Positions 45,468-60,585 of a DNA stretch of 64,000 nucleotides are shown piece by piece. This stretch comes from Psychroserpens sp. NJDZ02. GTDB lineage: Bacteria > Bacteroidota > Bacteroidia > Flavobacteriales > Flavobacteriaceae. Location of the stretch: positions 2,734,001 to 2,798,000 of the forward strand of contig NZ_CP039451.1 in assembly GCF_004843725.1 (NCBI RefSeq), read 5' to 3'. The translations under genes were made by a program, and so were the position numbers. Under the pieces are notes generated by a model that was not told the origin of the DNA, searched no databases, and saw only the letters and a list, made by a program, of their open reading frames with translations. Each line of letters starts with the position of its first letter. Within the stretch, counting starts at the first letter, position 1.

Positions 45468-45514
45468 TACTACTTTCTGATTAAATAGCTAACGAAAACC
45501 CAATATATACTGTT

Positions 45515-45566: not shown

Positions 45567-45570
45567 TGGT

Positions 45571-46605
45571 TTATTTTTTGTTTTTATCTATTATTTTTTT
45601 TCTGTCTTCGGCTATTTCTAAATTAAATTTCCACTTATTATTATAGTTCACTTCATCTCTTAGTTTTGCAAACTCAATAGCTTTCTCGTAGTCGCCTAAG
45701 GCGTAATAAACACCAGAAATATTACTTAGTAAACTCCAGTATACTTTCTTTTGTTTTTTGTCTGTTTTATCTGTGATTTTGTCAAGCTCTTTTTTAAAGT
45801 GGATTAAGCTTTTATTAGCAATAACTTTTAAGTCTTCTAAATAAGTGTCACTAAATTCTACCGCGTTTAAGGCTAACAATTGATCGACTTGGTCATTATT
45901 ACTGATACCATACTTTTCTTCTTTTTTAATATGAAATAGATTGATTCTTTGTTTTTCATAATAACTAGTAAATGCCGATTTCAAGCCTTTTGATATTTTT
46001 ATAACCACATTATCAGAGATTTTGTTGTTTTTAACAGTACGGTAGTCTCTGGCATTGGCGATATATTGATTTTTAATTTGAGAAAGCGCAATACTACTCG
46101 ATTTTATGGACGCATTATTATATACACCAGCACTTTCGGATTTATACTTGTCAGAAAATGTGTTATCATATAAAATGTTATCTTCATTATCTTTGACCAC
46201 AACTTTGATTGAGGAGGTTAACTCTACAATACCAGTATATGTATTAACAGCCTTTTCACCATACCCTTTTTTCTCTTCAACTCTAATAATATGTTTTACG
46301 CCTAAATCTGTAAACTCGATTATAAAATCAGGAGTTTCTGAGGTTGTAAAATTGGGCATTTCTAAATAGCGCTTAACAGAATTCGCGATATCAGGATTAG
46401 AGTAAGCTGTTGTTTTTTGTTCGCCATTAACTATAAGTTTAATATTATCTGTGTTGGACCTAATTTTAGTAGCGTAGGTTGTAAAGTTTTCAGGTAAAGC
46501 AATCTCTGGAAAATGGATTTCCTGGATGTACCATCCTTTGTTTTTTGCATTTTGTGCATTTAAGTTTAAGCTAACTAGTAATAAAAGGATAATAATTTTT
46601 TTCAT
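45571..46605 (-). CDS. Exported TPR-ended protein of unknown function
   Basis: 344 residues. Signal peptide MKKIIILLLLVSLNLNAQ; a beta-rich middle with FIIEFTDLGVKHIIRVEEKKG; one tetratricopeptide-like unit near the C-terminus (VYYALGDYEKAIEFAKLRDE). No family name recognised. Probably periplasmic or outer-membrane associated. Confidence 0.7.
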   Translation of the reverse strand: MKKIIILLLLVSLNLNAQNAKNKGWYIQEIHFPEIALPENFTTYATKIRSNTDNIKLIVNGEQKTTAYSNPDIANSVKRYLEMPNFTTSETPDFIIEFTDLGVKHIIRVEEKKGYGEKAVNTYTGIVELTSSIKVVVKDNEDNILYDNTFSDKYKSESAGVYNNASIKSSSIALSQIKNQYIANARDYRTVKNNKISDNVVIKISKGLKSAFTSYYEKQRINLFHIKKEEKYGISNNDQVDQLLALNAVEFSDTYLEDLKVIANKSLIHFKKELDKITDKTDKKQKKVYWSLLSNISGVYYALGDYEKAIEFAKLRDEVNYNNKWKFNLEIAEDRKKIIDKNKK

Positions 46606-46683
46606 GTTTTGATTTGTATTGATAGGGTAATTAAACTAAATTTTATTGTTTAAGACTACTTTATGACTTTAAAAGTTAATGAT

Positions 46684-46968
46684 CTATTCTTGCTTGCCAT
46701 AAAAGTTGACTAATACTTTTCCAAATATAAAATATAAGCATAGGATGGTTAACCCGCCTATAAAAAAAACATTGGTTAGTAATATTTGATAACCATACTT
46801 TAAACAAAACAATGAACAATAAGTAAGCAGTTGCAAAATAGCGTAGGCGATATTTCCTTTTGGACTATAACCAAACAAGCCAAGGAAATGGGTTTTGGTA
46901 AGCCCAAAAATTAGGTGTGGCATAGCATTTACTAATAGTGCTCCAATAAAAAAATTGATTATATTCAT
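46684..46968 (-). CDS. Small integral membrane protein
   Basis: 94 residues from MNIINFFIGALLVNAMPHLIFGL, chosen over ATG 47013 because the earlier residues are hydrophilic and not membrane-like. Three hydrophobic helices. Function unknown. Confidence 0.6.
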   Translation of the reverse strand: MNIINFFIGALLVNAMPHLIFGLTKTHFLGLFGYSPKGNIAYAILQLLTYCSLFCLKYGYQILLTNVFFIGGLTILCLYFIFGKVLVNFYGKQE

Positions 46969-47461
46969 TTTTGAATTTATACAGGTATTGTCAAAATAAC
47001 TTATTAAATACAAAACTAGTAATTTATAAACTTATTAGTACTTTAATGTTGAATATGCTCAAATTAAATAGGTTCTGTTTTTGGTTTTTTCTCTCTCTGT
47101 GTTTGAGTTAAAGAATACTATTGTGGTTAGGATTTGCTGAATAGAATAACTTAACGATTCTATTTTTTTTTAACGATACTGTAGATTGTGTTTATTTATC
47201 AAAATGTAGTTTTTCCATAAACGGGCACACATTAAAAGCCTTAACTTTTTAGACAAGTCTTCTTCATTTAAAAAAATATACGTAGTTCTACGTATTGTAA
47301 GACTACTTTATAAATTGTAGCTTAGCTTTTTAAAACCGAAATCAGGAACAAAAAGTGCGGATATCCCTTAATATTTAGGGGTATATGGAATAAAAGCCAC
47401 CATATAACTAGTTGGCATTCATTGAGCAACGAACTCGAAAAATAATCCTAAATTAAAATAT
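46969..47461. other. Gene-free left border of the accessory region
   Basis: No ORF. An imperfect hairpin lies at 47371-47396 (ATATCCCT...AGGGGTATAT), and ATATAACTAGTTGGCA at 47402-47417 resembles the far-side core of the palindromic elements found later (e.g. 50729-50742). This suggests the first gene of the array also has such a site before it. Confidence 0.4.
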
Positions 47462-48106
47462 ATGAAACAATCATTTTTTTTCATCTTAATTGCAACTCTA
47501 CTTATTACATCTTGTCAGGTTGTCAATAAAAAAGTAATAAGCAAAAAAGATAAATCAGAAAAAAAAGAAACAATTAAAATAGATTTAATAAATGGAGAAA
47601 TTAATGATATTTCATTTAAAGAATTGCTTCCAATAATTTATGACAAAACAAACACTTCTGGCAGTTATTGGGATAAAACGGAGGAATTTGGTAAACCATA
47701 TTTAAAGAAATTTTATGAAGAAGGCTTCAATATTCCTTTTATATTTAATGATTATAAAGTATTAGCGTCTGCTGCAAAACAAAAAATTGAGGGTCTTGAT
47801 TACCAATTAGTTTTAAGTAGTGGTTTTAATTATATGAAGTTGACACTTGATTTTGAGAAAAATATAAGTATAGAAGGTGTAACAACTTTAGAAATTAATA
47901 AAAACACAAGAATTAAAGAAATACTTATTGCACTTGGAAACCCTGACATCAAAACTCCACTAACCAATGTTTCTACTCGTGTCGTTAATTATCAATACAA
48001 TAATAAAGTTCCACATTGTAAGATTCTTTTTGAGTTTTTCGAAAATTCAAGTAAAATTAAGAGAATAGAAATTGCAAGTAATAAATATCCAAGAGATATG
48101 CATTAA
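47462..48106 (+). CDS. Lipoprotein of unknown function (array gene)
   Basis: 214 residues. Signal MKQSFFFILIATLLITSC with lipid-modified Cys18, a Lys-rich linker, then a beta-rich domain ending in FEFFENSSKIKRIEIASN. No family recognised. First gene of the mosaic; an IS1182 scar begins about 125 nt behind the stop. Confidence 0.6.
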   Translation: MKQSFFFILIATLLITSCQVVNKKVISKKDKSEKKETIKIDLINGEINDISFKELLPIIYDKTNTSGSYWDKTEEFGKPYLKKFYEEGFNIPFIFNDYKVLASAAKQKIEGLDYQLVLSSGFNYMKLTLDFEKNISIEGVTTLEINKNTRIKEILIALGNPDIKTPLTNVSTRVVNYQYNNKVPHCKILFEFFENSSKIKRIEIASNKYPRDMH

Positions 48107-48232
48107 AATAAATTGTGTCTAATAAAAGAAATTGAAACTGAAATCAAACATTCACTCCAAAGATTAGAGTATTGAAAAATGGAAATAAGTAAGACAATTA
48201 GAACTCGGAAAAAACAACGAAATGCCAACACC

Positions 48233-48621
48233 GGTAACCGTTGCACAACCCCTTAAAAAAGCATAAAAACAGCTTAAAATCTTTGGTTTTAAGCTATTTT
48301 TAATTTTAATACGTCATATTTTCTCTAAAATGCAAGTGGCTTAAAACATAGTATTCGAAGGCTTATTAGGTAGTTTTTGGTACTTTTAATATAAGCAGGT
48401 AGTCCCGCTATGCTTTCTGGCCCGTTTTTTATATATTTTAAATACTTTTTAAGATTATAGGCTGTTGCGGATAGATGCATACACTTATTAGCTTGTTTAA
48501 TCCCAAGGGTATTCACTTTTCCCATGCCTAAAAACTGGGTTAGTGTACCAAATACGGACTCTACCGTGCTTTGTCTTTTTCCTTTCATATAGCTTCCTTT
48601 ATCACAAATTCGTGGTCGCCC
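48233..48621 (-). mobile_element. IS1182-family remnant: transposase C-terminus and right end
   Basis: On the minus strand the frame 48611-48325 encodes KGKRQSTVESVFGTLTQFLG, ANKCMHLSATAYNLKKYLKY and ends CFKPLAF-stop, the C-terminal part of an IS1182-type DDE transposase. A hairpin terminator (48274-48301) and the element end (GGGGTTGTGCAACGGTTACC read outward) follow. The N-terminal three quarters are missing: at 48612-48622 the sequence changes into an IS3 fragment facing the other way. Confidence 0.8.
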
Positions 48622-48870
48622 TTTATTGAACAAGATCCGTGTTACGAAAACGCAATGGCAGAACGTATAAATGGCAAATTAAAAGATGAGTTCTATTTAG
48701 ATCAAACCTTTGATAACGTGGCACACGCAAAGAGAATTGGAAAAAATGCAATTAATTTATACAACGACGTTAGATTACATTTATCTTTAGATTATAAAAC
48801 ACCTAATATGGTATATAAATTATCAGCTTAAAAACAATTTTAACCTGTAGCCATATTTCAGGACAAGACA
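48622..48870 (+). mobile_element. IS3-family remnant: transposase C-terminus and right end
   Basis: Encodes EQDPCYENAMAERINGKLKD and HLSLDYKTPNMVYKLSA-stop (stop 48829-48831), the end of an IS3 orfB integrase. After the stop come 39 nt ending GGACAAGACA, the right terminus. The same end occurs at 52043, 55775 and 57431. Only the last 68 codons remain. Confidence 0.82.
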
Positions 48871-49281
48871 GTTATTAAATTTGATTTTTTAGGCTACTCT
48901 TTTCAACCTAGAACATCCAAATCTGAGAAGACTAAAGGATTATTTTTAGGCTTTGATTGTGCCATAAGTATAAGTTCCAAGAAGCGTATTGCTGATAAAT
49001 TAGGAGAATTGAAAGTACATAGAATGACTTGTAAGAGTATTATAGGTATTGCGCATCGCTTAAACCCTATTATTAGAGGTTGGATACGCTACTAGGGTAA
49101 ATTTAGAATATCTATGCTACACAAGGTTTTCAAATTACTCAACAATCGTTTAGTGAGGTGGGCAAGAAAACGGTATAAGCGCTATAAAACAAGTATAAAA
49201 CGTGCCTATAAATGGTTTAACAGAGAGCAGGAACAATTCCCTAACTTATTTTATCATTGGCACATGGGTTTTATCCAGTAA
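48871..49281 (+). pseudogene. Group II intron reverse transcriptase/maturase, 5'-truncated, with internal stop
   Basis: Begins exactly after the IS3 end. The frame reads FDFLGYSFQPR, GIAHRLNPIIRGWIRY, stop, GKFRISMLHKVFKLLNNRLVRWARKRYKR and FYHWHMGF. This is the maturase/X region and C-terminus of a group II intron-encoded protein. A TAG at 49093-49095 replaces what is normally a Tyr codon. The catalytic YADD part is gone. Confidence 0.82.
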
Positions 49282-49307
49282 TTTAGTACTTTAGATTTGT
49301 ATAACAA

Positions 49308-49381
49308 GAGCCGTATGATGCGAGAGTATCACGTACGGTTCTGTGAGAGACTTGAGGTGAAATCCCTCTTGTCTACTCGAC
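49308..49381 (+). ncRNA. Group II intron domains V and VI (3' end of truncated intron)
   Basis: 49308-49341 is a canonical 34-nt domain V: GAGCCGTATGATGCGAGAG then TATCACGTACGGTTC, with the GAGCCG/CGGTTC stem ends and the GCGA-like tip. Domain VI follows with a bulged-A type arm (CTTGAGG...CCTCTTG). The intron ends near 49377-49381. Without domains I-IV it cannot splice by itself. Confidence 0.85.
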
Positions 49382-50017
49382 TACATAAACGTTACAAAAC
49401 ATTACTCTAAAAAAATAAGCTTAGATGATTTATCTGAAGATGAGTTTACGGGGATTACAATAACAAAAAAAGGTAAAAGTTTCATTAAAGAAAAATGCCA
49501 ATCAGTAAAAAACTTTAAAGGTATTGTTATCTTTTACCTTTCGGTTGAGAATGAGGAACCTCGTGGAGGTGATGCACAGCTATTTCCCTTAGATGGTCAA
49601 TTTGTATTCATATATCTAAATTCTGCTGCTCTTAGAGATTTTCCACATGAAATAGGTCATGTATTAGGATTACAACATTCTTTCCTTGAGACATCGGATT
49701 ATATTTCGAAAATGGAAAATATTATCAAGAAATATAATATTCAGTTAAATGAACAAAAAGCTTATAGGAAACAACCAAATTATAATCAAAACAAGGTAGA
49801 GAAAAATATTTCTAAATTAAATCAATATATAGAGGATTCGAAACAGGATATTATAGAATATCAATCTATTATAAAAGACAATCCCTATAAGTTCCCAGAA
49901 ACTTCAACAACGAATTTGATGGACTACTTCGTTGGTGATGATATCTATAAGAGTAAAGATTTTTACAGATGGCAATGGCTTATTATGCAGAAAGATATTA
50001 TAAATTATTACAATTAA
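49382..50017 (+). pseudogene. Metzincin-type zinc metallopeptidase, 3' exon only
   Basis: An uninterrupted frame runs from the intron 3' end to TAA at 50015-50017 (about 211 codons). It contains HEIGHVLGLQH (49646-49678), the HExxHxxGxxH zinc site, and NLMDY (49913-49927), a Met-turn, followed by YRWQWLIMQKDI. This spacing is typical of metallopeptidase toxin domains that end polymorphic or type VI effectors in Bacteroidota. The 5' part was lost when the intron's front half was replaced by IS3. A later ATG at 49712 is internal. The next gene, 2 nt away, could be its immunity partner. Confidence 0.68.
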
Positions 50018-50019
50018 AC

Positions 50020-50466
50020 ATGAGAACATTCATTTTATTTTTTATCATCGCTTTGTCTTATTCTTGTAAGACTAAAATAAATCCACCATCTATCAAAGTA
50101 ATTGAAATTCCAGACCCTAATCCTCATACTTCTAAAGTACCTTTAGGGAATAATTCGATTAAAGCTGTCGTCAAGTACTTTAATGGAAAAAATGTGACTT
50201 TGGCTGCAATTAAATTAGTAGTTAACGACACTACATGCGTAAATTCGTATTCTAATTTTGATGGTCAATTCAGCATTTTATATGACAAGGAAATAATTAA
50301 CACAGAAAGTCATCTTGTAGTTGTTTTTAAAGGGTATTCAAAAAAGATTATTCCTTTCACCGACATTGAGAAGGATAGCGTTATAACCCTTAATAAGAGC
50401 GGAGAACTTCTTACCGAAACAGAATATCACTATTTTTTTGACAATATAAGAAGTTGCACTCAATAA
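50020..50466 (+). CDS. Lipoprotein with carboxypeptidase-regulatory-like domain, possible immunity partner
   Basis: 148 residues from MRTFILFFIIALSYSC (lipid-modified Cys16); earlier ATGs in this frame overlap the peptidase. The mature part shows SIKAVVKYFNGKNVTLAAIKLVVNDT and SYSNFDGQFSILYDKEI, a transthyretin-like beta-sandwich. It starts 2 nt after the metallopeptidase stop. A periplasmic lipoprotein behind a toxin-like peptidase suggests immunity; this is inference from position. Confidence 0.6.
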   Translation: MRTFILFFIIALSYSCKTKINPPSIKVIEIPDPNPHTSKVPLGNNSIKAVVKYFNGKNVTLAAIKLVVNDTTCVNSYSNFDGQFSILYDKEIINTESHLVVVFKGYSKKIIPFTDIEKDSVITLNKSGELLTETEYHYFFDNIRSCTQ

Positions 50467-50550
50467 CTTTCTTTAACAGATTAATATAATTGATTTCTTC
50501 CAAAATAAGTTTTTTTGGATGTTCAAATAATAGTTGAGAACAAACGTTTT

Positions 50551-50747
50551 GTAACAGCGTATAAAAAACATAGGGCATTTGTCTTAACCTAAAGGTCTGT
50601 GAGTATTAATTAAGTCCGCTAAATATAAAATTTGGCGTTTATAGTAAAAAAGATAAAAGCAAAATTTTTATATTTAGCTAAGTAATAAACCGAAACGAAA
50701 GTGCTTATCACCTGCCCTATGTTTCTTATACTAACCGTTGGCAACAA
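50551..50747 (+). repeat. Complete palindromic inter-gene element
   Basis: Outer arms GTATAAAAAACATAGGGCA (50559-50577) and its near-perfect complement (50713-50731, 18 of 19). Gene-side core GTAACA (50551-50556), far-side core CCGTTGGC (50735-50742). A second inverted repeat lies inside (50618-50634 / 50659-50678). Sits between two unrelated single genes; see findings. Confidence 0.7.
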
Positions 50748-50770
50748 GCTAAAAATCAGAACGCAAGAAA

Positions 50771-51499
50771 ATGAATAGAATACTTTTTATATTATTTCTA
50801 ACTTTCAATTTAAGTTGTTTTTCGCAAACTCAAGCGGAAATGAATAAAGATGTCTATGCAGAATTTAATGAATCTGACAAGCAACTAAATGACATATATA
50901 AAACCATTTTATCAGAATATAAAACAGATACAATTTTTATAGATAATTTAAAAAAATCTCAACGATTATGGACACAATTCCGAGATGCTGAAATGGAAAT
51001 GAAATATCCAAATTACCCAGAAAAAATATACGGTTCAATTCATCCGACTTGTAGAGCATTTTATTTAAAAGAATTGACTGACAAACGAATCAAAACTCTA
51101 AATATTTGGGTTAGCAGAACTGAAGAAGGTGATGTTTGTAGTGGTTCTGTTAAGATCATTGAAGAAATAGATTCTGAATATATGGGCAAAGCATATATTG
51201 GGAAAAATGGAGAGATATGGTTGACTGCAAATATGAAAAGAGACCATCGAATTTTTGGTTATAAAAATAAAGACATCAATTCGACAAAAATGATACTAAT
51301 ATCAATTTTCACGAATGAAGTAAAAAACAATCCATTTGACTGTAAATATGGAGCATATTATGAAACAAGCGGAATTAAAGATTTCAAGTTAAAATATGTT
51401 GAGACTGAGAATAACTTTTTGAAAATTAAAATAATAAAAGAAGGAAAAACCATTGACGAAGTATTTATGTTAAAAAAATGGTTTGAATTTGAAAAATAA
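50771..51499 (+). CDS. LprI-like (DUF1311) exported protein
   Basis: 242 residues. Signal peptide ending near CFSQ; an LprI-N-type helical domain at about 20-115: NKDVYAEFNESDKQLNDIYK, LKKSQRLWTQFRDAEMEM and the conserved GSIHPTCRAFYLKELTDKRI with Cys. The C-terminal half is a different beta-rich region. LprI of mycobacteria inhibits lysozyme; many members are uncharacterised. It begins 23 nt after the palindromic element. Confidence 0.75.
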   Translation: MNRILFILFLTFNLSCFSQTQAEMNKDVYAEFNESDKQLNDIYKTILSEYKTDTIFIDNLKKSQRLWTQFRDAEMEMKYPNYPEKIYGSIHPTCRAFYLKELTDKRIKTLNIWVSRTEEGDVCSGSVKIIEEIDSEYMGKAYIGKNGEIWLTANMKRDHRIFGYKNKDINSTKMILISIFTNEVKNNPFDCKYGAYYETSGIKDFKLKYVETENNFLKIKIIKEGKTIDEVFMLKKWFEFEK

Positions 51500-51576
51500 A
51501 AAAAGCCAGTTGCCAATAAAGTACTGTGTTAAAAACAAGTAAAATCCCATTAATTTTTCACTAACGTACTTTTATA

Positions 51577-51796
51577 TTATTTATCAAATATTAACCCTGA
51601 TTTAGCAATAGCAAAGGCTTGTTTTAATAACTTATTACAAACCGCTATTAAGGCTTGTTTTTTGCTTTTTCCTTTGGCTACTAATCGCTCATAAATAGCC
51701 TTGCAAGCTTTGTTGTATTTGCAAGCGCTAAAACTGCACATAAACAATAAATTTCTAAGTTTTTGATTACCCATTTTACTAATTGGTGGTCGCCCT
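51577..51796 (-). mobile_element. IS110-family remnant: transposase C-terminus
   Basis: Minus-strand frame PPISKMGNQKLRNLLFMCSF, CKYNKACKAIYERLVAKGKS, LIAVCNKLLKQAFAIAKSG is the C-terminal IS116/IS110/IS902 domain. Everything upstream is missing: at 51786-51800 it fuses to an IS3 fragment of opposite orientation through the same short tract (GTGGTCGCCCTTTA) as the IS1182-IS3 junction at 48612. Confidence 0.8.
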
Positions 51797-52043
51797 TTAC
51801 TGAACAAGATCCGTGTTACGAAAACGCAATGGCAGAATGTGTAAATGGCATATTAAAAGATGAGTTCTATTTAGATCAAACCTTTGATAGTGTAGCACAC
51901 GCAAAGAGCGCTGCAAAAAATGCAATTAATTTATACAACGACGTTAGATTACATTTATCTTTAGACTATAAAACACCAAATATGGTATATAAATTATCAG
52001 CTTAATTCAATTTTAACCTGTAGCCATATTTCAGGACAAGACA
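51797..52043 (+). mobile_element. IS3-family remnant, second copy
   Basis: Nearly identical to 48622-48870: ENAMAECVNGILKDEFYLDQ to KLSA-stop at 52003-52005, then the right end GGACAAGACA at 52034-52043. A few substitutions separate the copies. Confidence 0.82.
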
Positions 52044-52147
52044 TTCCACTCATTTCCAAAAAAATTAATTACTTTATGGAAACGTTTTTAGGAAAATTAT
52101 TAAGCTTATTTTAGACCACAAAAAAACGTTACTCAGAATTCAAAAAA

Positions 52148-53626
52148 ATGATAAATAAATTATTTCTGACTTTCTTATTATTATCTATCGAAATAACTTT
52201 CGGACAAATAAACAAACCTGATTCTTCTATTTTAAATGAAAGTGGAATAAATTATACTCCTATTACTAAATCTTCTACCATAAATTCAACTGAAGGAGCA
52301 TCTTTTTGTAAAGGTATTTTTGAAAAACATCCTCAAGTTTTAACGGATATTGGAATATCTATTTTAATTTTAAAGGAAGAATGTAATTGTACTGTTGGAG
52401 ATTTTGATAATAATGGATATTTGGATTTTGCTTTTTGGGGGATTGACAAATCTGAACCGATAAAGCACGGAGTTAATCATTTAGATTATGAAAACTATGT
52501 TGTATTATTCTTTGAAAAATCCAATATAATAAATACAAAAAAAATTAAGACAGAACCTGGCTTACCTTTAGTTTATTACCCTAAAAGAAGCCAGATAGGA
52601 GACAATAATGAACCTATAAGTAACAAAGAATCTCTTTGGGTTTGGGGAACTACAGAAGATGGTTATGATGATTATTCACAAGGGACAGTTTACATCTACA
52701 ATAATTATACAAAAGAATTCGAAAAAGTAAAATACCCTTATGAAAACTTATCACAAACAGCAAAAACAACTTTAACAAACGATTATCTCTATAGTGCTAC
52801 TGTAAATTCAAATACTTCTTTAAATGTAAGAAGTTCTCCTGATTTAAAAGGAACAAAAATTGGAAACATAAGATATCGTAAAGAAGTAAAGGTGCTTAAG
52901 CATACTAATATTTATTTTTCTTTAAAACTAGAAAATAGAACGGCATATGGGCAATGGGTTTATATATCATATATAGATTCATACAAAAAGGTGAAAAAAG
53001 GTTATGTATTTGACTACTTTTTAGAAATGAATTTTGATACCAAGAAGCTTGGTATTAATATAACTGATGCTATAAAAAAGTTTAAAGAGCATAAAGATTG
53101 TCTTATTGAAAATGTTTCTACTGACTTTTTATTTAGTATTCAAGGGTTATCTTATTCAAAGGAAGATTCTAATAGAGTGGAACGAATACGAATTGAAATA
53201 CAAGGTATAACAGACTCGAATACTACTTTCCAAAGAATTGATTATAAACCTAATAATTGGATGATGTACAATGAAGTTGATTGTGATGCAAGAAGTAATT
53301 TTGAAGAAAAAAAGACTTCTATTGAAATCGGCAACTTAGGACACCTTATAATATGGGATTATAATATTGATGGATTACAAGATTTTGCCATTATGAGCGA
53401 CCAAGGTATGAATGCTGGTTCATATTATGATTTTTATATGCAACAAAAGGATGGTAGCTTTAAAATCGAAGAATACCCTTTTTCACTATTTCCTACTAAC
53501 ATAGATTATGAAAACAAAACAATCACTGAAATACATCCTTTAGGCTGTTGTAAATTAAGTGGAGCAACATACAAAAAAGAAAAAAATAAATGGAAATTAA
53601 TTAAAACGATAAATGAGGATATGTAA
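52148..53626 (+). CDS. Exported SH3-domain protein with XAC2610-like C-terminus
   Basis: 492 residues. Signal peptide ending near TFGQ. First part has an FG-GAP-like CNCTVGDFDNNGYLDFAFWG. A bacterial SH3 domain lies at about 215-290 (SLNVRSSPDLKGTKIGNI...GYVFDYF). The C-terminus LIIWDYNIDGLQDFAIMSDQG with EIHPLGCCKLSG recalls XAC2610-type domains. The arrangement suggests cell-wall or carbohydrate binding outside the cytoplasm. It follows an IS3 right end by 104 nt; function unknown. Confidence 0.68.
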   Translation: MINKLFLTFLLLSIEITFGQINKPDSSILNESGINYTPITKSSTINSTEGASFCKGIFEKHPQVLTDIGISILILKEECNCTVGDFDNNGYLDFAFWGIDKSEPIKHGVNHLDYENYVVLFFEKSNIINTKKIKTEPGLPLVYYPKRSQIGDNNEPISNKESLWVWGTTEDGYDDYSQGTVYIYNNYTKEFEKVKYPYENLSQTAKTTLTNDYLYSATVNSNTSLNVRSSPDLKGTKIGNIRYRKEVKVLKHTNIYFSLKLENRTAYGQWVYISYIDSYKKVKKGYVFDYFLEMNFDTKKLGINITDAIKKFKEHKDCLIENVSTDFLFSIQGLSYSKEDSNRVERIRIEIQGITDSNTTFQRIDYKPNNWMMYNEVDCDARSNFEEKKTSIEIGNLGHLIIWDYNIDGLQDFAIMSDQGMNAGSYYDFYMQQKDGSFKIEEYPFSLFPTNIDYENKTITEIHPLGCCKLSGATYKKEKNKWKLIKTINEDM

Positions 53627-53650
53627 TACTCAAAAACTGCATACAACAAT

Positions 53651-53900
53651 GGTAACCGTTGCACAACCCCTTAAAAAAGCATAAAAACAGCTTAAAATCT
53701 TTGATTTTAAGCTGTTTTTAATTTTAATACGTCATTTTTTCTCTAAAATGCAAGTGGCTTAAAACATAGTATTCGAACGCTTATTAGGTAGTTTTTGATG
53801 CTTTTAATAAAAGCAAGTAGTCCTGCTATACTTTCTAGCCCGTTTTTCATGTGTTTTTGTACTCTGCTTTACTATATATACGAAATTTCTATATCTTTAA
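53651..53900 (-). mobile_element. IS1182-family right-end scar, second copy
   Basis: Starts GGTAACCGTTGCACAACCCC only 25 nt after the stop of the SH3 gene and shows the terminator hairpin CAGCTTAAAATC/GATTTTAAGCTG and the transposase end CFKPLAF-stop. The transposase frame is lost after about 60 codons. The following ~120 nt are shared with the copy at 55349. Confidence 0.75.
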
Positions 53901-53911
53901 AAAGCACATTG

Positions 53912-54050
53912 TGCAACAGGCACACCGTGTCTAATTAATTACTTGGGTCACTGCTGACTTACGAACATTCCTACGGAATATTCTATCTGTGATTTATTTG
54001 CTAAATTAGTTGCATAACCAAGTAGCTAGCCATACACTAAACCGTTAGCC
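53912..54050 (+). repeat. Palindromic inter-gene element
   Basis: Gene-side core TGCAACA (53912-53918) and far-side core CCGTTAGC (54042-54049). Arms GTGTCTAATTAATTACTTGG (53927-53946) and the complement of 54018-54037 match at 14 of 20 positions; most differences are G/A or C/T and so allow G-T pairs. A tip hairpin ATTCC-TAC-GGAAT lies inside. Confidence 0.6.
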
Positions 54051-54222
54051 ACAATAAGACCTAAACGACCTAGAATTACATATTAATAGCTCTGATTATA
54101 TATATTTCTATGAGAAAAAATCAAGGAAAAAATTCAATAACGAGAGAAAGGCAAGCAAATCTAAATATGTTAAAGATGTTCGCGAAAATTGGAAAGAAGT
54201 AAGAATTAAAACCGAGGACTGC

Positions 54223-54558
54223 ATGCTAATAAATTATGACACCAAAGTCAATAAAGATTCTATAACCTATTCAATGACTAACGAAAAAGAATCGTTTTAT
54301 GACTGGATGGACAGAGATAATAAAAAAGTGGATTTAGTTGACATACAAAGAAGTAAAGTATTGTGTCAGCAGATAATAGACGGAAAAATTATCAAGGAAT
54401 TTTCTACTACAATTGATATGGACATTACTATTGTAGAATTTAAATTAAAAATGAGAGACTATGTGAGTGTATATTTTCCAGTTGATTTTGATAACGAAAA
54501 TTATTTTATCGATTTGGAATTTCTAAATGAAGAAATTGATAAAAATAAATTTAAATAA
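54223..54558 (+). CDS. Unknown protein, probably 5'-truncated (array gene)
   Basis: 111 residues from the first ATG. However, the frame is open back to 54058 and reads like protein (NSSDYIYFYEKK, KYVKDVRENWKEVRIKTEDC) with no ATG, GTG or TTG. The frame begins within 8 nt of the far core of the palindromic element. So the gene seems to have lost its start, or uses a rare codon. No signal peptide, no recognised domain. Confidence 0.45.
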   Translation: MLINYDTKVNKDSITYSMTNEKESFYDWMDRDNKKVDLVDIQRSKVLCQQIIDGKIIKEFSTTIDMDITIVEFKLKMRDYVSVYFPVDFDNENYFIDLEFLNEEIDKNKFK

Positions 54559-54570
54559 GCATAATTACTG

Positions 54571-54598
54571 TGGCTAACATAGTATAAAAATAGTGCTT
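54571..54598 (+). repeat. Gene-side half of a palindromic element
   Basis: GGCTAACATAGTATAAAAAT followed by AGTGC, directly behind the stop at 54558. It matches the left arm of the element at 50551 (GTAACAGCGTATAAAAAACA). A matching right half was not found before 54772. Confidence 0.5.
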
Positions 54599-54771
54599 AA
54601 TCAAGAGTTGGTACGCTTTTGTAATGTCTAATTTTTGTTTGTAAAACACTCTCATATAAACCCGTAGCTATTTTTTTTGCATAAATGTTATAAGAAATTT
54701 GACGCAACCATTTCGGGATTTTAGCATCTATTAACAAAACAGTAATATCTATTAAAAAAAAAACAGTAATC

Positions 54772-55329
54772 ATGAAAAAAATAATTCTTTTAATATCATT
54801 CATAGGAATTTTAGCATCGTGTTCAAATGATGATTCTGAATCTGAAATACAAGAATTTGTGGCTGGAGAAGTGTCTGTCGGAATTAAAAGCGGAACAGAC
54901 ATAAATGACTTGTTTGAATTTATAAATATTTTTGACCATCAAGTTGATAATGTGAACTCATTGACCTTTAATTCAAATTTGGAATCAGACAATTTACAAC
55001 ACGTTTTAGATGTTCTTAATGAAAAAACTTATACAAATGATGGCGTAAATTGGTTTGTAACAGGTTATTTAGATTCGGAAACAAACGATATTACGATATT
55101 TCCAAGACTTTTTGGAATGGAAAATACTCAATACCAAACTGACTGGATTAATTCAATGAGCGAATTAGAATTGACAGAAAAACATAATACAGAATTGAAC
55201 AGCGGAATAATCCGTTTCTACGTTCCTGTTGGTAAAGAGATAGAATGGAGAAATCAATTTGCGAATTACGATATTGTCGATTGGTCTGAACTCAATTATA
55301 TTTCAGAAATTCAACCACACACGAATTAA
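54772..55329 (+). CDS. Lipoprotein of unknown function (array gene)
   Basis: 185 residues. Signal MKKIILLISFIGILASC with lipid-modified Cys17 then an acidic linker (SNDDSESE). The rest is mixed alpha/beta with no recognised family. It is followed within 20 nt by an IS1182 scar. Confidence 0.6.
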   Translation: MKKIILLISFIGILASCSNDDSESEIQEFVAGEVSVGIKSGTDINDLFEFINIFDHQVDNVNSLTFNSNLESDNLQHVLDVLNEKTYTNDGVNWFVTGYLDSETNDITIFPRLFGMENTQYQTDWINSMSELELTEKHNTELNSGIIRFYVPVGKEIEWRNQFANYDIVDWSELNYISEIQPHTN

Positions 55330-55348
55330 AAAAAACGGCTTACCACAC

Positions 55349-55613
55349 TGTTACCGTTGCACAACCCCTTAAAAAAGCACAAAACAGCTTAAAATCTTTG
55401 ATTTTAAGCTGTTTTTAATTTTAATACGCCATACTTTCTCTAAAATACAAGTGGCTTAAAACATCGCAATCAAACGCTTATTAGATGGTTTTTGGTGCTT
55501 TTAATAATAGCAAGTAGTCCCGCTATATTTTTTAGCAGATTTTTCATGTGTTTTTGTGCCTTACATTACTAAGTAAACCAAATTTCTATATCTTTAACAA
55601 CACGTTTTGCGAG
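55349..55613 (-). mobile_element. IS1182-family right-end scar, third copy
   Basis: TGTTACCGTTGCACAACCCC, the same hairpin and transposase end (here CFKPLVF-stop) as 53651. From about 55535 on it also shares the extra segment TTTTTCATGTGTTTTTGT and AAATTTCTATATCTTTAA with the 53651 copy. Confidence 0.7.
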
Positions 55614-55710
55614 AGGTACACCGTGTATAATTAATTGTTACTGCTAGCTTACTTAAGAAAATCCTTGCGGATTTTTTATCAAGTTTTTATTTGTTAAATT
55701 AGGAACTTAA
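55614..55710 (+). repeat. Gene-side half of a palindromic element, homologous to 53912-54016
   Basis: ACACCGTGTATAATTAATTG and the inner hairpin AAAATCC-TTGC-GGATTTT. The right arm and CCGTTRGC core are absent; an IS3 right end takes their place. Confidence 0.55.
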
Positions 55711-55715
55711 ACACA

Positions 55716-55775
55716 CCACTTAAATTATCAGCTTAATTCAATTTTTGACCTGTAGCCATATCTCAGGACAAGACA
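55716..55775 (+). mobile_element. IS3-family right-end scar
   Basis: AAATTATCAGCTTAA then the 3' terminus ending GGACAAGACA at 55766-55775. Only the last few codons of orfB are kept. The next gene starts 20 nt later. Confidence 0.75.
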
Positions 55776-55795
55776 TAAAAAAACTCAAGTAGGGA

Positions 55796-56704
55796 ATGAA
55801 ATATTTTTGGATTATTATAATACTTATGACGCTTTCTTGCGTAAAGAAAAAAAAAGAATTTATACAACCTAAAATTCTAATAAAAAATTCAGGGTTTGAT
55901 TTAACCAAATTAAGTTTTAACGAAGATGTCTTGACGCTAATGTCAAAATCATTAGACACCATTAATAATTATAAGAATGTTAATTATCCAACGGACGCAC
56001 AGAAAAAAAGTTTAGCTCAAAATAGTAAAGCAATTTATTTAGATGAAAAAAGATACTATTTCCAATTATTAGAATTGGACAGTGTTGCTCAATATTTTGG
56101 TTTAATGGCCGATAACATTAAAATAGAAACGGATTCAACTTTAAAAATACAGGCTTGTTGGTCTAATGCTAAAGTATTTGACAGTACAAAATTAGACTCA
56201 GTATTACATAAAATGTACGTTCATTATGGTAAAACCAATTGGATGAAAAATTATGAAGCTGAATTAGGCTTACAAAAAGTAGTTTATGCTAACACAGACG
56301 AAAATGGAAAAATCACACACGAAATAAAATATGAGGAGTATGAAATTGACTATGAAGCATACTTGTACGAATATAAAATCAATAATTTTGATAATTTTGA
56401 TCAATGGAGTTTAGCGGATAGAATTATTCAAGTTAAAATATCTGATGGAGTTGAATCAATAATAAACCTATCCTCTGGTCAAATAGAAAGAAAACCATAT
56501 TATAGTGTCGAGCTTTTAAGTATTCTAAAAAAAGAATATGAATTAATAAAAAAGACTTTAGCCTCAGAATCCACTAAATATAATTATCCCATGCGAATTG
56601 TGAAACCATATTATATTGAAGATTTAGATTTTTACCTCCATTTTAATAGGTTTTATATTAGTGAAACAAAAGATGGAAAAAAAACATATGACTTTAATAA
56701 GTAA
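55796..56704 (+). CDS. Lipoprotein of unknown function (array gene)
   Basis: 302 residues. MKYFWIIIILMTLSC with lipid-modified Cys15, then KKKK and a Tyr/Asp-rich mixed domain (FGLMADNIKIETDSTLKIQ, NWMKNYEAELGLQKVVYAN). No family recognised. The ATG is only 20 nt from the IS3 terminus, so its original promoter was probably lost. Confidence 0.58.
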   Translation: MKYFWIIIILMTLSCVKKKKEFIQPKILIKNSGFDLTKLSFNEDVLTLMSKSLDTINNYKNVNYPTDAQKKSLAQNSKAIYLDEKRYYFQLLELDSVAQYFGLMADNIKIETDSTLKIQACWSNAKVFDSTKLDSVLHKMYVHYGKTNWMKNYEAELGLQKVVYANTDENGKITHEIKYEEYEIDYEAYLYEYKINNFDNFDQWSLADRIIQVKISDGVESIINLSSGQIERKPYYSVELLSILKKEYELIKKTLASESTKYNYPMRIVKPYYIEDLDFYLHFNRFYISETKDGKKTYDFNK

Positions 56705-56777
56705 CCTATGCGCAACAATTTAATTAGATATAAATTTTAATATTTTTAAAAATCGCTTTGAATATATATAACCGTTT

Positions 56778-57092
56778 ATGAAAAATATATTAAAATATTC
56801 TACCTTTTTTGGACTAGGAGCAATAATGATTATTGTTCTTACTTATCTTTACATGCCAAATTTATCAGGAAGTGATGCAATGGGAAAGGGTATTGCAGAT
56901 GGATACAATACTATTGGATTTATAATATTTATTGTTCCTTACTCGCTTATAATTATATTTTCTTTGTACAAGTTTTTAATAAATCAATCTGAGTTTGAAA
57001 ATAAATCTATTTGGACTGTTATTCATATTATTCCATTCTTATTTGCTGTGTTGTATGTAATTGGAAATACTCTAGAGGCTATTCAAAATTGA
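56778..57092 (+). CDS. Three-helix membrane protein of unknown function (array gene)
   Basis: 104 residues with three transmembrane helices (about 7-27, 42-64, 80-98). The N-terminus MKNILKYSTFFGLGAIMII could also act as an uncleaved signal. It lies 73 nt after the lipoprotein gene; a shared transcript is possible. Confidence 0.55.
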   Translation: MKNILKYSTFFGLGAIMIIVLTYLYMPNLSGSDAMGKGIADGYNTIGFIIFIVPYSLIIIFSLYKFLINQSEFENKSIWTVIHIIPFLFAVLYVIGNTLEAIQN

Positions 57093-57348
57093 TTGTCATT
57101 GAAAAATAACTACTGCTAACCCCAGTAAAAGTTGCACAACCCATAATATTTTAATAAATTAAGTAAACTAAGTCTTTTTAGGGGGCTTGATTTTTATTGT
57201 TTATTAAGTTTTTCCTTTATTTTGGTGCGCTTAAAAGGAGGTCTATCGCCTTTTGAATACTGTGATTTTTTTTAATAAAAAGTCAAGTGCTTTTTGCTTG
57301 ACTTTTTGCTCGATTTTGTAATAGGTTTAGCTGATTTTTAAGATTATA
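57093..57348. other. Scar region with element-end-like sequence and a hairpin
   Basis: CTGCTAACCCCAGTAAAAGT then TTGCACAACCC (57113-57142) mirrors the gene-side core plus IS1182-end junction of the other scars, but the sequence behind it is different. A perfect 11-bp hairpin AAAAAGTCAAG/CTTGACTTTTT lies at 57277-57307. No ORF. Confidence 0.45.
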
Positions 57349-57431
57349 TTTAGGTTATAAAACACCTGATATGGTATATAAATTATCAGCTTAATTCAAT
57401 TTTAACCTGTAGCTATATTTCAGGACAAGAC
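57349..57431 (+). mobile_element. IS3-family right-end scar
   Basis: TATAAAACACCTGATATGGT, KLSA-stop codons and the terminus GGACAAGAC. Fourth IS3 right end in the mosaic, again placed just before a gene. Confidence 0.75.
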
Positions 57432-57446
57432 TTATAAACCAACATT

Positions 57447-58130
57447 TTGAAACAAATACTATCAATTCTAATTTTTCTATTTTCTATTACAATTTATTCT
57501 CAAAACTTTGTGAATTTGAATTGTGAAATGGGATTTGAAAAAATTCAAGTAGAAACAAAACCTGAAGAACAAGTTTCCTATAAAACAATATACTCGCAAA
57601 AAGTTTATGGAAAAGAAAGCTTTGAATTCAGCCAAGGAATAATTGTGATTAAAAATATTAATGACCAAATTTCTCAAAATGAAATTATCGAAATTATAGG
57701 TCGTATAGCAGTTAATAAAAAATTCATCAAGATAATTGCTTTGCAAAGTTGTGATGCAGGCGAATTATACTTGCAACAAACGGAATTAACATCTGAACAG
57801 AAGAATTACTTAAGCGAAAATCTGATTGTAGAAATGGATATTGACTTACTCAAATCTTTATCAAAAAAGGAAAAGAAAAAACAAAGGAAAAAACGTGATT
57901 TAATAGAAACTGTTTCTAAAAAATCCTGCGACAAATTATCTCAATTAAATAAAAAGGACTTTACGCGTGAACAGTTTACGCAAATTGTTTCAGCTTTGAG
58001 TGCCGAATATGCCGAAAAAACAATGAATGTATACGAAATGTCATTTGAAGAAAGTGCGGGTATATTTGTAACAGATATGACCAATTACTTATTTTCGAAT
58101 TGTGGAGCACTCAAAAAATTGATGCAATAA
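57447..58130 (+). CDS. Exported protein of unknown function (array gene)
   Basis: 227 residues beginning with TTG at 57447 (LKQILSILIFLFSITIYSQ), a clear signal peptide; no ATG is available, and the start is only 16 nt from the IS3 terminus, which may have replaced the original one. The C-terminal part is helical and basic in the middle (KKEKKKQRKKRD). It contains conserved-looking Cys residues in LQSCDAGEL and SNCGALKK. No family recognised. Confidence 0.55.
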   Translation: MKQILSILIFLFSITIYSQNFVNLNCEMGFEKIQVETKPEEQVSYKTIYSQKVYGKESFEFSQGIIVIKNINDQISQNEIIEIIGRIAVNKKFIKIIALQSCDAGELYLQQTELTSEQKNYLSENLIVEMDIDLLKSLSKKEKKKQRKKRDLIETVSKKSCDKLSQLNKKDFTREQFTQIVSALSAEYAEKTMNVYEMSFEESAGIFVTDMTNYLFSNCGALKKLMQ

Positions 58131-58155
58131 TGATAACAAAGTAAAAAACACGTTT

Positions 58156-58347
58156 GCTAACAATATATATAGCAAATTGGGCGATTAGTGTTAAATCCAA
58201 AGGTCATTGTCTATTTACAAAGTCGCCAAATCTATTGATTTGGATTTAAACTAGAAAAGATAAAACAAAATAAAAAGATTTGGCTTGTGACTAAACTGAA
58301 AGTAATTACTTGTTTTCTGCCCCACTTGCCATATATTTAACGTTAGC
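58156..58347 (+). repeat. Complete palindromic inter-gene element
   Basis: Cores GCTAAC (58156-58161) and GTTAGC (58342-58347) pair perfectly. Arms ATATATAGCAAATTGGGC (58165-58182) and the complement of 58319-58336 match 15 of 18. Inside are two more perfect inverted repeats: TTAAATCCAAA/TTTGGATTTAA (58191-58201 / 58239-58249) and GCCAAATC/GATTTGGC (58225-58232 / 58277-58284). They overlap in pseudoknot order. Confidence 0.75.
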
Positions 58348-58381
58348 TGGAAGCTGAAGAAAAACTTACTGACAATAAAAA

Positions 58382-59425
58382 ATGAGAGTAATTAGAAAGT
58401 CAATAGAACAAACAACAGAGCATTATAATTTGATTTCGGAATATGAAAGCAAATATGATTTTCAAATGGATGTTGAAAAAGGTCTAAGCTCAATTTTTTT
58501 ATTTTCCCAGAACTTTCCTCTGAAAGCTGTTTCAGATTTTTTATCAGGAGAGAATTTTTCAATGTCTGAATGTTTTGAAGAAATAGAAATTTCATACCAT
58601 TTAATTAAATATGGTTTTTATAAGCAATCAATGATAAGTCTTAGGACGAGTCTAGAAATCGGTCTATTATCAATTTATTGGTCAATTATAGGAAAAGAAA
58701 GTTCTGAATTCAAACAATGGTTGTCATCTAAATTTGATACACCTTATAAAAATGAAAAATTCTGGAAAAAAATTAAAACAAATGAAAATATCAAACTTTT
58801 TGATTTAGAATTTAACCTGATTGAAGAAATTAAAAAGTTTGGTTTGTCCGACTTTGTGCACACTAAGGGAGTTAGGTATTCAAATTATGGAGAATTTCAA
58901 AGAAAGATAAAGGGACAAGATAAGTTTGAAAATTACCAAGAATGGCTAAAAAACTTTAAAGATATTGTGCGGATTTTAGAAATCTTACACTTATTAAAAT
59001 TTCCCACTTTGAATATTCGATTTTCAACTGATTTTTTGCTGTCTAAGTTTGGCACCTTTGATAGTATTCCTCAGTTTGGTTCAGGGTTCGGAGATGAGAT
59101 GAATAACCTTTCTTCATTTATTCCACAAAATCAAATATCATTTATAAATGACATGGCTAATTCCGATGAAGAAGTGATTGAAATAAAAAAATGGATTAAT
59201 GAATTACCTGACTTAACAGAAGAAGAATTAGAAAGCAAAATACTGGATAATCAAAAGAGAAATATTGAAAGTTGTGGATTTGAAAACTGGAGTTCAAATA
59301 CAACGATTTATGACAGTAGAATAACTTCTGATATGATTATCAAACTTAGAGAGTGGTCAAAATCCAAGAATTTAATGACTTTTGAAAATATAATCGAAAA
59401 CCATAAAAAGAAAGCTAGCAGCTAA
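58382..59425 (+). CDS. Cytoplasmic protein of unknown function (array gene)
   Basis: 347 residues, no signal or membrane segment. Helix-rich N-terminal half with LISEYESKYDFQMDVEKGLS and SYHLIKYGFYKQSMISLRTS, reminiscent of HEPN-like or DUF5677-like bundles, but no RxxxxH catalytic motif stands out. The last codons lie within a few bases of the gene-side core GCTAACA at 59421. Family not recognised. Confidence 0.55.
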   Translation: MRVIRKSIEQTTEHYNLISEYESKYDFQMDVEKGLSSIFLFSQNFPLKAVSDFLSGENFSMSECFEEIEISYHLIKYGFYKQSMISLRTSLEIGLLSIYWSIIGKESSEFKQWLSSKFDTPYKNEKFWKKIKTNENIKLFDLEFNLIEEIKKFGLSDFVHTKGVRYSNYGEFQRKIKGQDKFENYQEWLKNFKDIVRILEILHLLKFPTLNIRFSTDFLLSKFGTFDSIPQFGSGFGDEMNNLSSFIPQNQISFINDMANSDEEVIEIKKWINELPDLTEEELESKILDNQKRNIESCGFENWSSNTTIYDSRITSDMIIKLREWSKSKNLMTFENIIENHKKKASS

Positions 59426-59625
59426 CAATGGTAACCGTTGCACAACCCCTTAAAACAGCTTGAAATCGTTGGTTTTAAGCTATTTTTAATTTTGACTCTC
59501 CGTATTTTCTCTAAAATGCAAGTGGCTTAAAACATACCATTCGCACGCTTATTAGGTGGTTTTTGGTACTTTTAATATAAGCAAGTAGTCCCGCTATACT
59601 TTCTGGCCTGTAAGCTTCCCATAAA
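59421..59625 (-). mobile_element. IS1182-family right-end scar, fourth copy, right border of the array
   Basis: GCTAACAATGGTAACCGTTG, then CACAACCCC and the same transposase end (CFKPLAF-stop) and hairpin as the other copies, shorter at the junction. It overlaps the last codons of the array gene, so the IS end sits directly on the gene-side core. About 80 nt later normal chromosome resumes. Confidence 0.75.
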
Positions 59626-59705
59626 ACCGAACTATTAAAAATTAAAAGGATAGTAGTTAAACGCCTTATCGGAATGACATTGGGTTAGAAATATTTTTTA
59701 ATTAG

Positions 59706-60356
59706 CTATTTTTTTTGTGCAATCAGTAGTGTGTTGGTACCTGTCACCTGTTCTAAGACAGTACAAGTAAAATGAGTCTGCTTTTTAAAATAATTAATCA
59801 CATGATATGGTTTGTCTTGCTTGTCTAAATTTATCCCCAAATTATAAAGGACAGTCCCTTTTGGGTTTATCATTTTAGATAAGGTATTACTAAACGTTTC
59901 TGTTAAAAATGGAGTAGGGACCTCTTGATCAATAAATAGGTCAACTATAATTAAATCATAGTTTGAAGTACAGGTGTTTACAAAATCTAAAGCATCACAA
60001 TTAAAGATGTTTATATTGTCAAAATGGGATAAGTTAAACTCGTTTTTTGCTATAGAAATTACTTTCTCATCAATCTCTAAGACATCTAATGTCCCGTTAT
60101 AATCAAATTTGTTTTTCAAAGAATGGACGATACTGCCGCCACCTAATCCAAGGAGTAATATGGAGTGACTGTTTTTAATATCTATTTTAGAAAGACCTGT
60201 TTCTAGAATGCGCTGCAAAGTGCCGTAAGAATAGTTTGCATTTTTACTATCTAATACTTTTCGACCGTTAATCCAAGTGACTTCTAATACGCCATTAAAA
60301 TCAGTGTCTATTTTAGTGGTTTGAGGCCAGATAAAACTCAGTAGTTTTTTCATCAT
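59706..60356 (-). CDS. Spermidine synthase-like SAM-dependent methyltransferase
   Basis: 216 residues. The Rossmann motif is LLLGLGGGSIVHSL with VLEIDEKVISIA, then FNCDALDFVNT and DLIIVDLFIDQEVPTPF, as in spermidine-synthase-type enzymes. The gatekeeper region and size are shorter than true SpeE, so the substrate is open. First ATG pair at 60356/60353. First core gene after the mosaic. Confidence 0.8.
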   Translation of the reverse strand: MMKKLLSFIWPQTTKIDTDFNGVLEVTWINGRKVLDSKNANYSYGTLQRILETGLSKIDIKNSHSILLLGLGGGSIVHSLKNKFDYNGTLDVLEIDEKVISIAKNEFNLSHFDNINIFNCDALDFVNTCTSNYDLIIVDLFIDQEVPTPFLTETFSNTLSKMINPKGTVLYNLGINLDKQDKPYHVINYFKKQTHFTCTVLEQVTGTNTLLIAQKK

Positions 60357-60521
60357 AAATTAAGAACAACGTATTACAAGATTAGTCGTTTGGTTTAGTT
60401 ACAAATTTAATTGTTTTTATATATTGTGATAGCAATTTATCATTATTAAATAATAGTATGTCTTTTAAATGTAGGCCTGTACTTTCGGTATTAAATAGGA
60501 TTAACAGGAAATATCATGTAT

Positions 60522-60566
60522 AAAAAAGCTCCTTTTATCACAGTATAGTACTGGATAAAAGGAGCT
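60522..60566 (-). terminator. Rho-independent terminator of the M3 peptidase gene
   Basis: Perfect 12-bp stem GCTCCTTTTATC/GATAAAAGGAGC (60528-60539 / 60554-60565), extended inside by CAGTA/TACTG, with an A run at 60522-60527 giving the T tract on the minus strand. Confidence 0.9.
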
Positions 60567-60585
60567 GTAATTATTGGTAGACGTC

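Follow-up and report, generated by a model that had tools for sequence, protein, structure and literature searches.

The forward-strand stretch from 2,734,001 to 2,798,000 of the Psychroserpens sp. NJDZ02 genome (G000; 4.32 Mb, a single contig), 64,000 nucleotides long and referred to below as the window, carries an array in which single genes alternate with long palindromic elements. The locus raises the question of what these elements are and which enzyme, if any, moves the genes between them. A first-pass annotation, made from the DNA alone, had read them as recombination sites of a cassette-type system.

We conclude, with a probability of roughly 90%, that the array is a satellite cassette array of an integron-like system, headed by an attI-like site, in which each cassette consists of one open reading frame (ORF) and the palindromic site behind it. 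The cassette-type reading is supported by the single-ORF units, by their variable content and by the association of the sites with one recombinase clade; recombination itself is suggested by comparison of cassette copies and loci. Beyond the first-pass annotation, the analysis identifies an attI site, an integrase gene elsewhere on the chromosome, complementarity between the start and the end of each cassette, and an enzyme that is not IntI.

The array and its sites

Two covariance models were used to describe the sites: R1, built from the long elements (alignment A1), and R2, a model of a short class of about 138 nt (alignment A2), built because R1 was weak on many short sites. The two long sites of the window are rows of A1 and its short site is a row of A2, so the bit scores given for these three are not independent. 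The features, by window position and strand, are as follows.

47279–47331, +: conserved module with the ACGTAGTTCTACGTATTG palindrome and the bases following it (exact match at 47279–47297)
47332–47413, +: attI-like site (BLAST against the integrase-linked attI, E = 2.7e-13; alignment; cassette start)
47412–48228, +: cassette 1, lipoprotein-like ORF 47462–48106; start TTGGCATTCATT, end AACGAAATGCCAA
48226–48633, −: DDE_Tnp_1_6 transposase fragment, inside the site that followed cassette 1
48869–49391, +: group II intron fragment, directly adjoining a site at its right-hand end (..TACATAAACG, then TT); Rfam RF00029 at 49306–49381
49392–50554, +: cassette 2, interrupted ORFs; start TTACAAAACATT, end AACGTTTTGTAA, perfect match
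50545–50745, +: long attC-like site 1 (R1, 199.1 bits; BLAST copies)
50738–51516, +: cassette 3, ORF 50771–51499 with LprI domain PF07007; start TTGGCAACAAGC, end GCCAGTTGCCAA, one mismatch
53913–54052, +: short attC-like site (R2, 76.3 bits)
54045–54577, +: cassette 4, ORF 54223–54558; start TTAGCCACAATA, end TACTGTGGCTAA, perfect match
54568–54695, +: degraded attC-like site (R2, 55.7 bits)
54772–55329, +: cassette ORF, 185 residues, weak lipoprotein signal; cassette start not found
55609–55732, +: degraded attC-like site (R2, 37.1 bits), adjoining a transposase-element fragment common to the locus in the same-genus relative genome G005
55796–56704, +: ORF in the array, 302 residues, no Pfam match
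57447–58130, +: ORF ahead of long site 2, 227 residues, no Pfam match
58151–58350, +: long attC-like site 2 (R1, 168.0 bits)
58343–59425, +: cassette 5, ORF 58382–59425; start TTAGCTGGAAGC, end GCTAGCAGCTAA, two mismatches of 12
59424–59607, −: transposase-element fragment in the last site

The three complete elements reported earlier at 50551–50747, 58156–58347 and 53912–54050 are present, with their limits now at 50545–50745, 58151–58350 and 53913–54052, and both the BLAST copies and the covariation place them far beyond chance. Two of the reported half-elements, at about 54571 and 55614, are degraded sites; the third, at about 47402, proved by homology to be part of the attI-like site at 47332–47413. 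A BLAST search of the host genome with long site 1 gives 49 matches at E ≤ 1, of which 13, counting the site itself, have E ≤ 4.3e-35; the matches lie in clusters of mostly single orientation. R1 gives 94 matches there at E ≤ 1, some of which are antisense echoes of the palindromes, and 95 elements were found within the stretches taken from this genome. Twenty elements could be aligned over about 200 nt. Their common structure has 95.0% paired cells, with 15 of 27 pairs changed on both sides; none of 500 shuffles reached any of five structure measures, and sliding the partners reduced the pairing to 31–45%. The elements are thus imperfect palindromes of variable sequence and conserved, covarying structure, as expected of attC-type sites.

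Site lengths range from about 55 to 205 nt. The sites of about 55 nt, with a GGCCGACGGCC hairpin, belong to a Rufibacter locus (L163), where R2 matched nothing and the sites were found through the start/end signature described below. The shortest canonical attC sites are of similar size. Throughout, GTT and AAC are conserved and exchange falls in GTT, while the letters that follow are specific to the cassette and often do not conform to RRRY; the canonical integron core consensus is GTTRRRY/RYYYAAC. The core CGTTRGC proposed in the first-pass annotation has to be replaced by (C/A)GTT followed by cassette-specific letters.

The window array is partly decayed through transposase fragments and a group II intron, the sites having been invaded by DDE_Tnp_1_6 elements, IS110-family elements and the intron; these invasions account in part for the degraded elements noted earlier. 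The intron fragment is 97% identical to an intron at the G005 locus (L250). Both copies end just before a cassette start, CG-TT (the hyphen marks the boundary), as if the intron targeted attC-like sites.

Cassette ends and apparent cassette movement

Cassette ends were analysed in 249 elements from 19 genomes (95 from the host genome), which remained of 289 merged matches after 40 had been dropped (38 without a recognisable core and two opposite-strand echoes); they form 198 neighbouring same-strand pairs less than 4 kb apart. A unit runs from the T after (C/A)G in (C/A)G-TT to the equivalent point at the end of its own site. At the start of a unit, (C)G-TT is followed by six variable bases, and their reverse complement precedes AACA at the end of that unit. 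Over the 198 pairs the mean match is 4.37 of 6, and 123 pairs are perfect; 2000 shuffles gave a mean of 1.93 (s.d. 0.085, largest 2.23). As many as 55 different hexamers occur among the 123 perfect pairs. The complementarity covers eight contiguous bases and then continues past a fixed mismatch to reach up to 11 of 12, with match fractions of 0.75, 0.89 and 0.93 at positions 9, 11 and 12; position 10 is mismatched in all 123 perfect pairs, with A against C in 106. In cassette 1 of the window, start and end are complementary apart from one extra A, which was scored as two mismatches.

The pairs were divided by the presence of a repeated left tail only after the complementarity data had been seen. 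None of the 40 tailed pairs is perfect, compared with 123 of the 158 without a tail. These tails are probably derived from insertion sequences (IS), and invading elements probably explain the tailed left sides of element pairs. Over half of the pairs in the host genome are tailed (38/68), and in 16 other genomes 109 of 130 pairs are perfect.

Complementarity of this kind would be expected of a unit if it circularised at GTT with folding of its site. When folded in silico, the circular form of the site was more stable than the form in situ for 37 of 40 sites of genome G023, as the start/end complementarity demands. Pairing past position 8 was not seen by the same script in 20 canonical IntI loci, where most of the matches may be chance; a plain six-of-six search without the fixed mismatch was too noisy, giving 55 matches in negative loci and 155 in canonical IntI loci (one strand).

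The cassettes are mostly single-ORF units, as the first-pass annotation had described, and the ORF is usually in array orientation. Among 278 cassette rows defined de novo (including one zero-length artefact and rows counted twice at overlapping stretches), the longest ORF lies on the array strand in 233 and on the opposite strand in eight, and 37 have none of at least 50 residues. Their median length is 732 nt, of which the longest ORF (at least 50 residues) covers a median of 90%. Ten window ORFs were scanned: two match Pfam families above the cut-off (LprI and SH3_3), and a third shows a weak lipoprotein signal only.

Several copies appear to have moved. A 391-bp cassette with its site is present at 29.39 and 960.7 kb of the host genome with 99.6% identity over 538 nt. 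The homology begins at the G of GTT. One copy follows the end of an attI (..CATATAACTA), the other a different site that finishes in ..CTGAGCC; similar starts of the following cassettes hide where the homology stops on the right. Genome G023 has two copies of a 583-bp cassette, separated by about 33 kb, whose right flanks diverge directly after GTTG, and six copies of a 435-bp cassette. The content of the window array itself varies, in line with the cassette reading. The G005 locus keeps the flanks (window 44821–47423 at 88.6% and 59691–64000 at 92.6%) and the attI, and blastn at E ≤ 1e-8 found no window cassette gene in it; the pieces that the two loci share between the flanks are transposase fragments, intron fragments and site sequence. 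Comparison of synteny with other members of the genus failed, the flank gene being found by DNA in one of nine.

The putative integrase and the attI-like sites

The window was correctly described as free of tyrosine integrases. The genome has three PF00589 genes, which encode an XerC-like, an XerD-like and a 393-residue protein, and all lie elsewhere. The gene for the 393-residue tyrosine recombinase (1,217,661–1,218,839) has an intact frame and lies 2.9 kb ahead of the first R1 array element; its closest named relative is from Olleya namhaensis (91%).

Relatives at E ≤ 1e-60 occur in 29 of 60 genomes (the host included), and a search with an alignment of integrases (A7) at ≥250 bits adds eight of the remaining 31, one as a fragment and one with broken frames; this limit was set after a gap down to 202 bits had been seen. 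Elements (R1, E ≤ 0.001) are present in 34 of the 37 integrase-bearing genomes and in six of the 23 others (Fisher p = 1.9e-7). The earlier proposal that one tyrosine recombinase always accompanies the arrays therefore stands as an association with one clade, and the 'always' fails in both directions.

The linkage is also directional. In 80 named integrase loci taken from a genome scan, the start/end signature, searched de novo, occurs 56 times downstream on the integrase strand (17 loci; one Rufibacter start is counted twice), never upstream on that strand and six times on the other strand, while controls with the fixed letter changed gave 9, 12 and 6 matches without this bias. R2, which was built without the named loci, gave 47 matches on 52 of the 80, 45 of them downstream on the integrase strand; the remaining two both fall on the other strand at a single locus. 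R1 gave 18 on the 52, 16 on the plus strand. Loci with such downstream matches include those of Algibacter, Winogradskyella, Zunongwangia, Flavobacterium, Seonamhaeicola, Algoriphagus, Rufibacter and a Cyclobacterium metagenome-assembled genome (MAG). In an evenly drawn set of 295 Bacteroidia genomes, 149 have integrase relatives at E ≤ 1e-68, a count of the integrase and not of arrays. In draft genomes (loci L081, L084, L085 and L099), several contigs break off immediately after the integrase or the first site, probably because the repeated sites disrupt assembly, and arrays are likely to be under-counted in drafts.

The start of the array was examined at 36 integrase loci, namely 20 from relatives and the host genome, plus 16 that were chosen from the 80 named loci for their signature matches. 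The first cassette starts within 215 nt of the integrase stop codon in 28 of the 36 and within 600 nt in 32; of these 28 starts, 21 have no mismatch in 12, five have one and two have two. An attI thus lies beside the integrase gene, at the point where the cassettes begin, in these 28.

Counting the one behind the integrase gene, the host genome has 20 copies of this attI-like sequence at E ≤ 1.1e-5 (17 weaker matches of 37, with E above 1e-4, were left out), and G005 has 19 such sites at E ≤ 5.1e-6. All 20 host copies are followed within 8 kb downstream by an element on the same strand, and none has one in the opposite direction; the figure for random positions is 4.0%. Three elements outside the fetched stretches, two of them weak, were added to this count by hand. 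The following element is a weak R1 match at two of the sites (E of 0.054 and 0.47), and at one it is 6.8 kb away with another attI-like site between. In the 17 copies that were aligned, the shared sequence stops at GTT, and most contain the final codons of the integrase gene but nothing more of it. The window copy likewise has these codons and lacks the integrase; its exchange point lies within the GTT at 47411–47413. A conserved upstream module, containing the ACGTAGTTCTACGTATTG palindrome or a close match to it, is shared by 12 of 16 aligned satellite copies and is possibly a promoter. The palindrome has 44 matches with at most two mismatches in the host genome (control, 1). Six of these, spaced by about 141 bases at 1082736–1083459 (G000:C1), lie away from the listed attI sites.

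The 393-residue protein does not belong to the IntI family. It scores 195.6 bits with TIGR02249, for which the IntI cut-off is 265 (the XerC- and XerD-like proteins score 112.4 and 134.5), and 203.1 with NF040815 (cut-off 220). Aligned with IntI4 (PDB 2a3v), it has 18 residues where IntI4 has 61. In a comparison of 80 proteins, the segment from the KDR to the HxLRH motif spans 58–59 residues in each of the 23 A7 rows, and every one of the 18 canonical IntI proteins has exactly 100; 18 of 20 canonical loci from the family search were kept for this table and for the tree, L129 (fused frame) and L131 (no frame) being left out. A quick maximum-likelihood tree places IntI in one clade (SH-aLRT 100), which includes a Pseudoalteromonas row with an 81-residue segment, and 37 Bacteroidota integrases in a separate clade (SH-aLRT 96). 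The root is weak, as is the support for the placement of XerA-like rows, and three relatives with an N-terminal extension (L169, L173 and L176) fall outside the Bacteroidota clade. Of 296 genomes sampled from the phylum, 84 have a canonical IntI over the cut-off, and 83 of these belong to classes other than Bacteroidia.

The closest solved structures by sequence are of the XerA type (PDB 5hxy and 4a8e), which also rank at the top by fold. An AlphaFold2 model of the integrase (mean pLDDT 79, pTM 0.49) is closest to XerA and IntI4. No Pfam family matches the first 98 residues of the protein, which the structure comparison barely covered. Four relatives (L186, L188, L163 and L160) have much longer N-terminal parts, with 210 to 395 residues before the core. 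In the features compared, the system works like an integron except in the identity of its enzyme. The IntI-specific additional domain, which forms part of the integron definition in PMC9668308, is absent here; the enzyme is not IntI, and therefore we do not class the system as an IntI integron.

Proposed mechanism, alternatives and known systems

In the mechanism that we propose, the integrase would recombine two neighbouring sites at GTT and in this way excise the cassette in circular form. This circle would carry one site whose two arms, now from one cassette, pair, so that one strand can fold back, and this folded site would be inserted at attI. The presumed catalyst is the linked integrase. 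In the host genome, one integrase gene (1,217,661–1,218,839) would act in trans on about 20 attI platforms, among them that at 47332–47413. On a wider scale, we favour with moderate confidence the view that a tyrosine recombinase lineage distinct from IntI, and without its domain, runs fold-back cassette recombination in about half of Bacteroidia, and that in genomes like this one a single integrase feeds about 20 attI platforms in trans, most satellite sites having their own upstream module.

A number of observations weigh against this account. Within an array, each of the two arms of a site belongs to a different cassette, and their pairing hardly exceeds chance (the two sides of a single site match at 2.23 of 6, against 1.93 when shuffled); excision may therefore need only the inner stem, or differ from insertion. 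Perfect complementarity is incomplete even without tails, since 25 of the 158 untailed pairs score below 5 of 6, and in the host genome only 14 of 30 are perfect. The association of enzyme and sites has exceptions: six of the 23 genomes without a detected integrase have elements (26 in G028), and three of the 37 with an integrase show none with R1. No downstream signature was found in 63 of the 80 named loci, an unsorted set that includes many short contigs and loci outside the clade, and four of the 36 loci have no first-cassette start within 600 nt (three farther away, one not found). Finally, the case for action in trans on the satellite attI sites is one of position and homology.

The alternative that survives best, although we consider it unlikely, is that the system was formerly active and that the arrays of the host genome are now relics. 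The window array is full of transposase and intron fragments, and the probably IS-derived left sides of the 38 tailed host pairs point the same way. Relics would not readily account for the near-identity of the 391-bp cassette and its site in two distant arrays of the same genome, for an intact integrase frame, or for content that differs from that of the same-genus G005.

That the array is a canonical integron, or a cluster of attC sites lacking an integrase (CALIN), run by an ordinary IntI is much less credible. Cassettes, attI, palindromic sites and exchange at GTT would all fit, and the catalytic core resembles IntI4, but none of the three PF00589 genes reaches the 265-bit cut-off, the KDR-to-HxLRH segment has 58–59 residues against the 100 of IntI, and the enzyme sits in a separate clade. 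Pairing past position 8 was also not seen in the 20 canonical loci, with the caution on chance matches given above. The satellite array does resemble a CALIN in having no integrase beside it; it differs in starting with an attI-like site and in having an integrase of the matching type elsewhere on the chromosome.

Slightly less credible still is the possibility that the housekeeping XerC and XerD move the cassettes, as in dif modules, with the third recombinase merely a neighbour. XerC-like and XerD-like genes are present, the core of the third recombinase is Xer-like, and dif modules likewise consist of genes flanked by tyrosine recombinase sites. It is the third clade, however, that adjoins the arrays in many genera, with attI directly behind its gene (XerC/XerD neighbourhoods were outside this comparison), and that co-occurs with the elements. 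Sites of dif modules are short and bound by XerC/XerD, whereas those described here are fold-back structures of about 55 to 205 nt linked to another recombinase. XerA-type recombinases, the closest relatives by sequence and fold, differ from the integrase in lacking its extra N-terminal part and its link to cassette arrays.

Two further readings retain almost no credence. Miniature inverted-repeat transposable elements or REP-type repeats scattered near gene ends would explain palindromes repeated within one genome close to transposase fragments, but not the consistent array orientation, the duplicated cassettes that break at GTT, or the cassette-specific complementarity and the attI-like sites ahead, the last two of which rule this reading out. 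Transposons with 12-bp terminal inverted repeats, one per unit, would match the inverted repeats at unit ends and are ruled out by the variety of these ends, the shared part being the site between units.

Integron-like recombination thus remains the preferred explanation, and the nearest known counterparts are the sedentary chromosomal integrons, or superintegrons. Like these, the system has single-gene cassettes in one orientation, a palindromic site behind each, exchange at GTT and an integration site beside the integrase, and the array size is comparable (the 60 kb analysed in G023 contain 51 elements). It differs in an enzyme that lacks the IntI additional domain, lies outside the IntI clade and has an extra N-terminal part of about 95 residues, in cassette-specific complementarity that extends over as many as 11 of 12 bases and includes a fixed mismatch, and in about 20 attI-like sites per genome (G000 and G005). 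The integrase gene here is also oriented towards the array, attI following its stop codon, whereas in common integrons integrase and array are divergent. This layout is not unique, because archaeal integrons have attI immediately downstream of intI, as PMC9668308 describes.

The literature was consulted through open-access titles and abstracts, with subscription journals and bioRxiv outside this coverage, and no description of this system was found. Bacteroidetes are reported to have few integrons: a survey of complete genomes with IntegronFinder 2.0 gives one complete integron in Bacteroidetes proper, in Salinibacter ruber M1 (PMC9024848); a 2008 survey lists the Bacteroidetes/Chlorobi group (PMC2426708) and a 2021 review the Bacteroidota (PMC8618304) as integron-bearing; and a Tenacibaculum study using IntegronFinder 2.0, on a strain outside the present analysis, reports no integrons (PMC10013915). 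A tyrosine recombinase survey describes the integron-like subgroup by an insertion in the catalytic domain (PMC8138268), and the additional domain of IntI is regarded there and in PMC9668308 as essential. Our results suggest that this domain is not needed for cassette-type arrays.

What we describe looks like an overlooked integron-style system, which may be common across Bacteroidia. With alternative integrase relatives in half of the Bacteroidia genomes sampled (149/295), tools based on IntI and attC may have overlooked a large reservoir of mobile genes, most of them uncharacterised. The system offers a test of convergent versus sister origins of integrons, and its cassette-specific end pairing bears on the birth of cassettes and on their selection by single-strand folding. 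A further locus, on the reverse strand of a Firmicutes MAG contig (L189; PGZN01000027.1), has four consecutive cassette-like units that diverge from a non-IntI tyrosine recombinase with a short segment of 58 residues. Each unit shows the start/end signature with one mismatch, and the locus is perhaps another integron-like lineage with a divergent layout.

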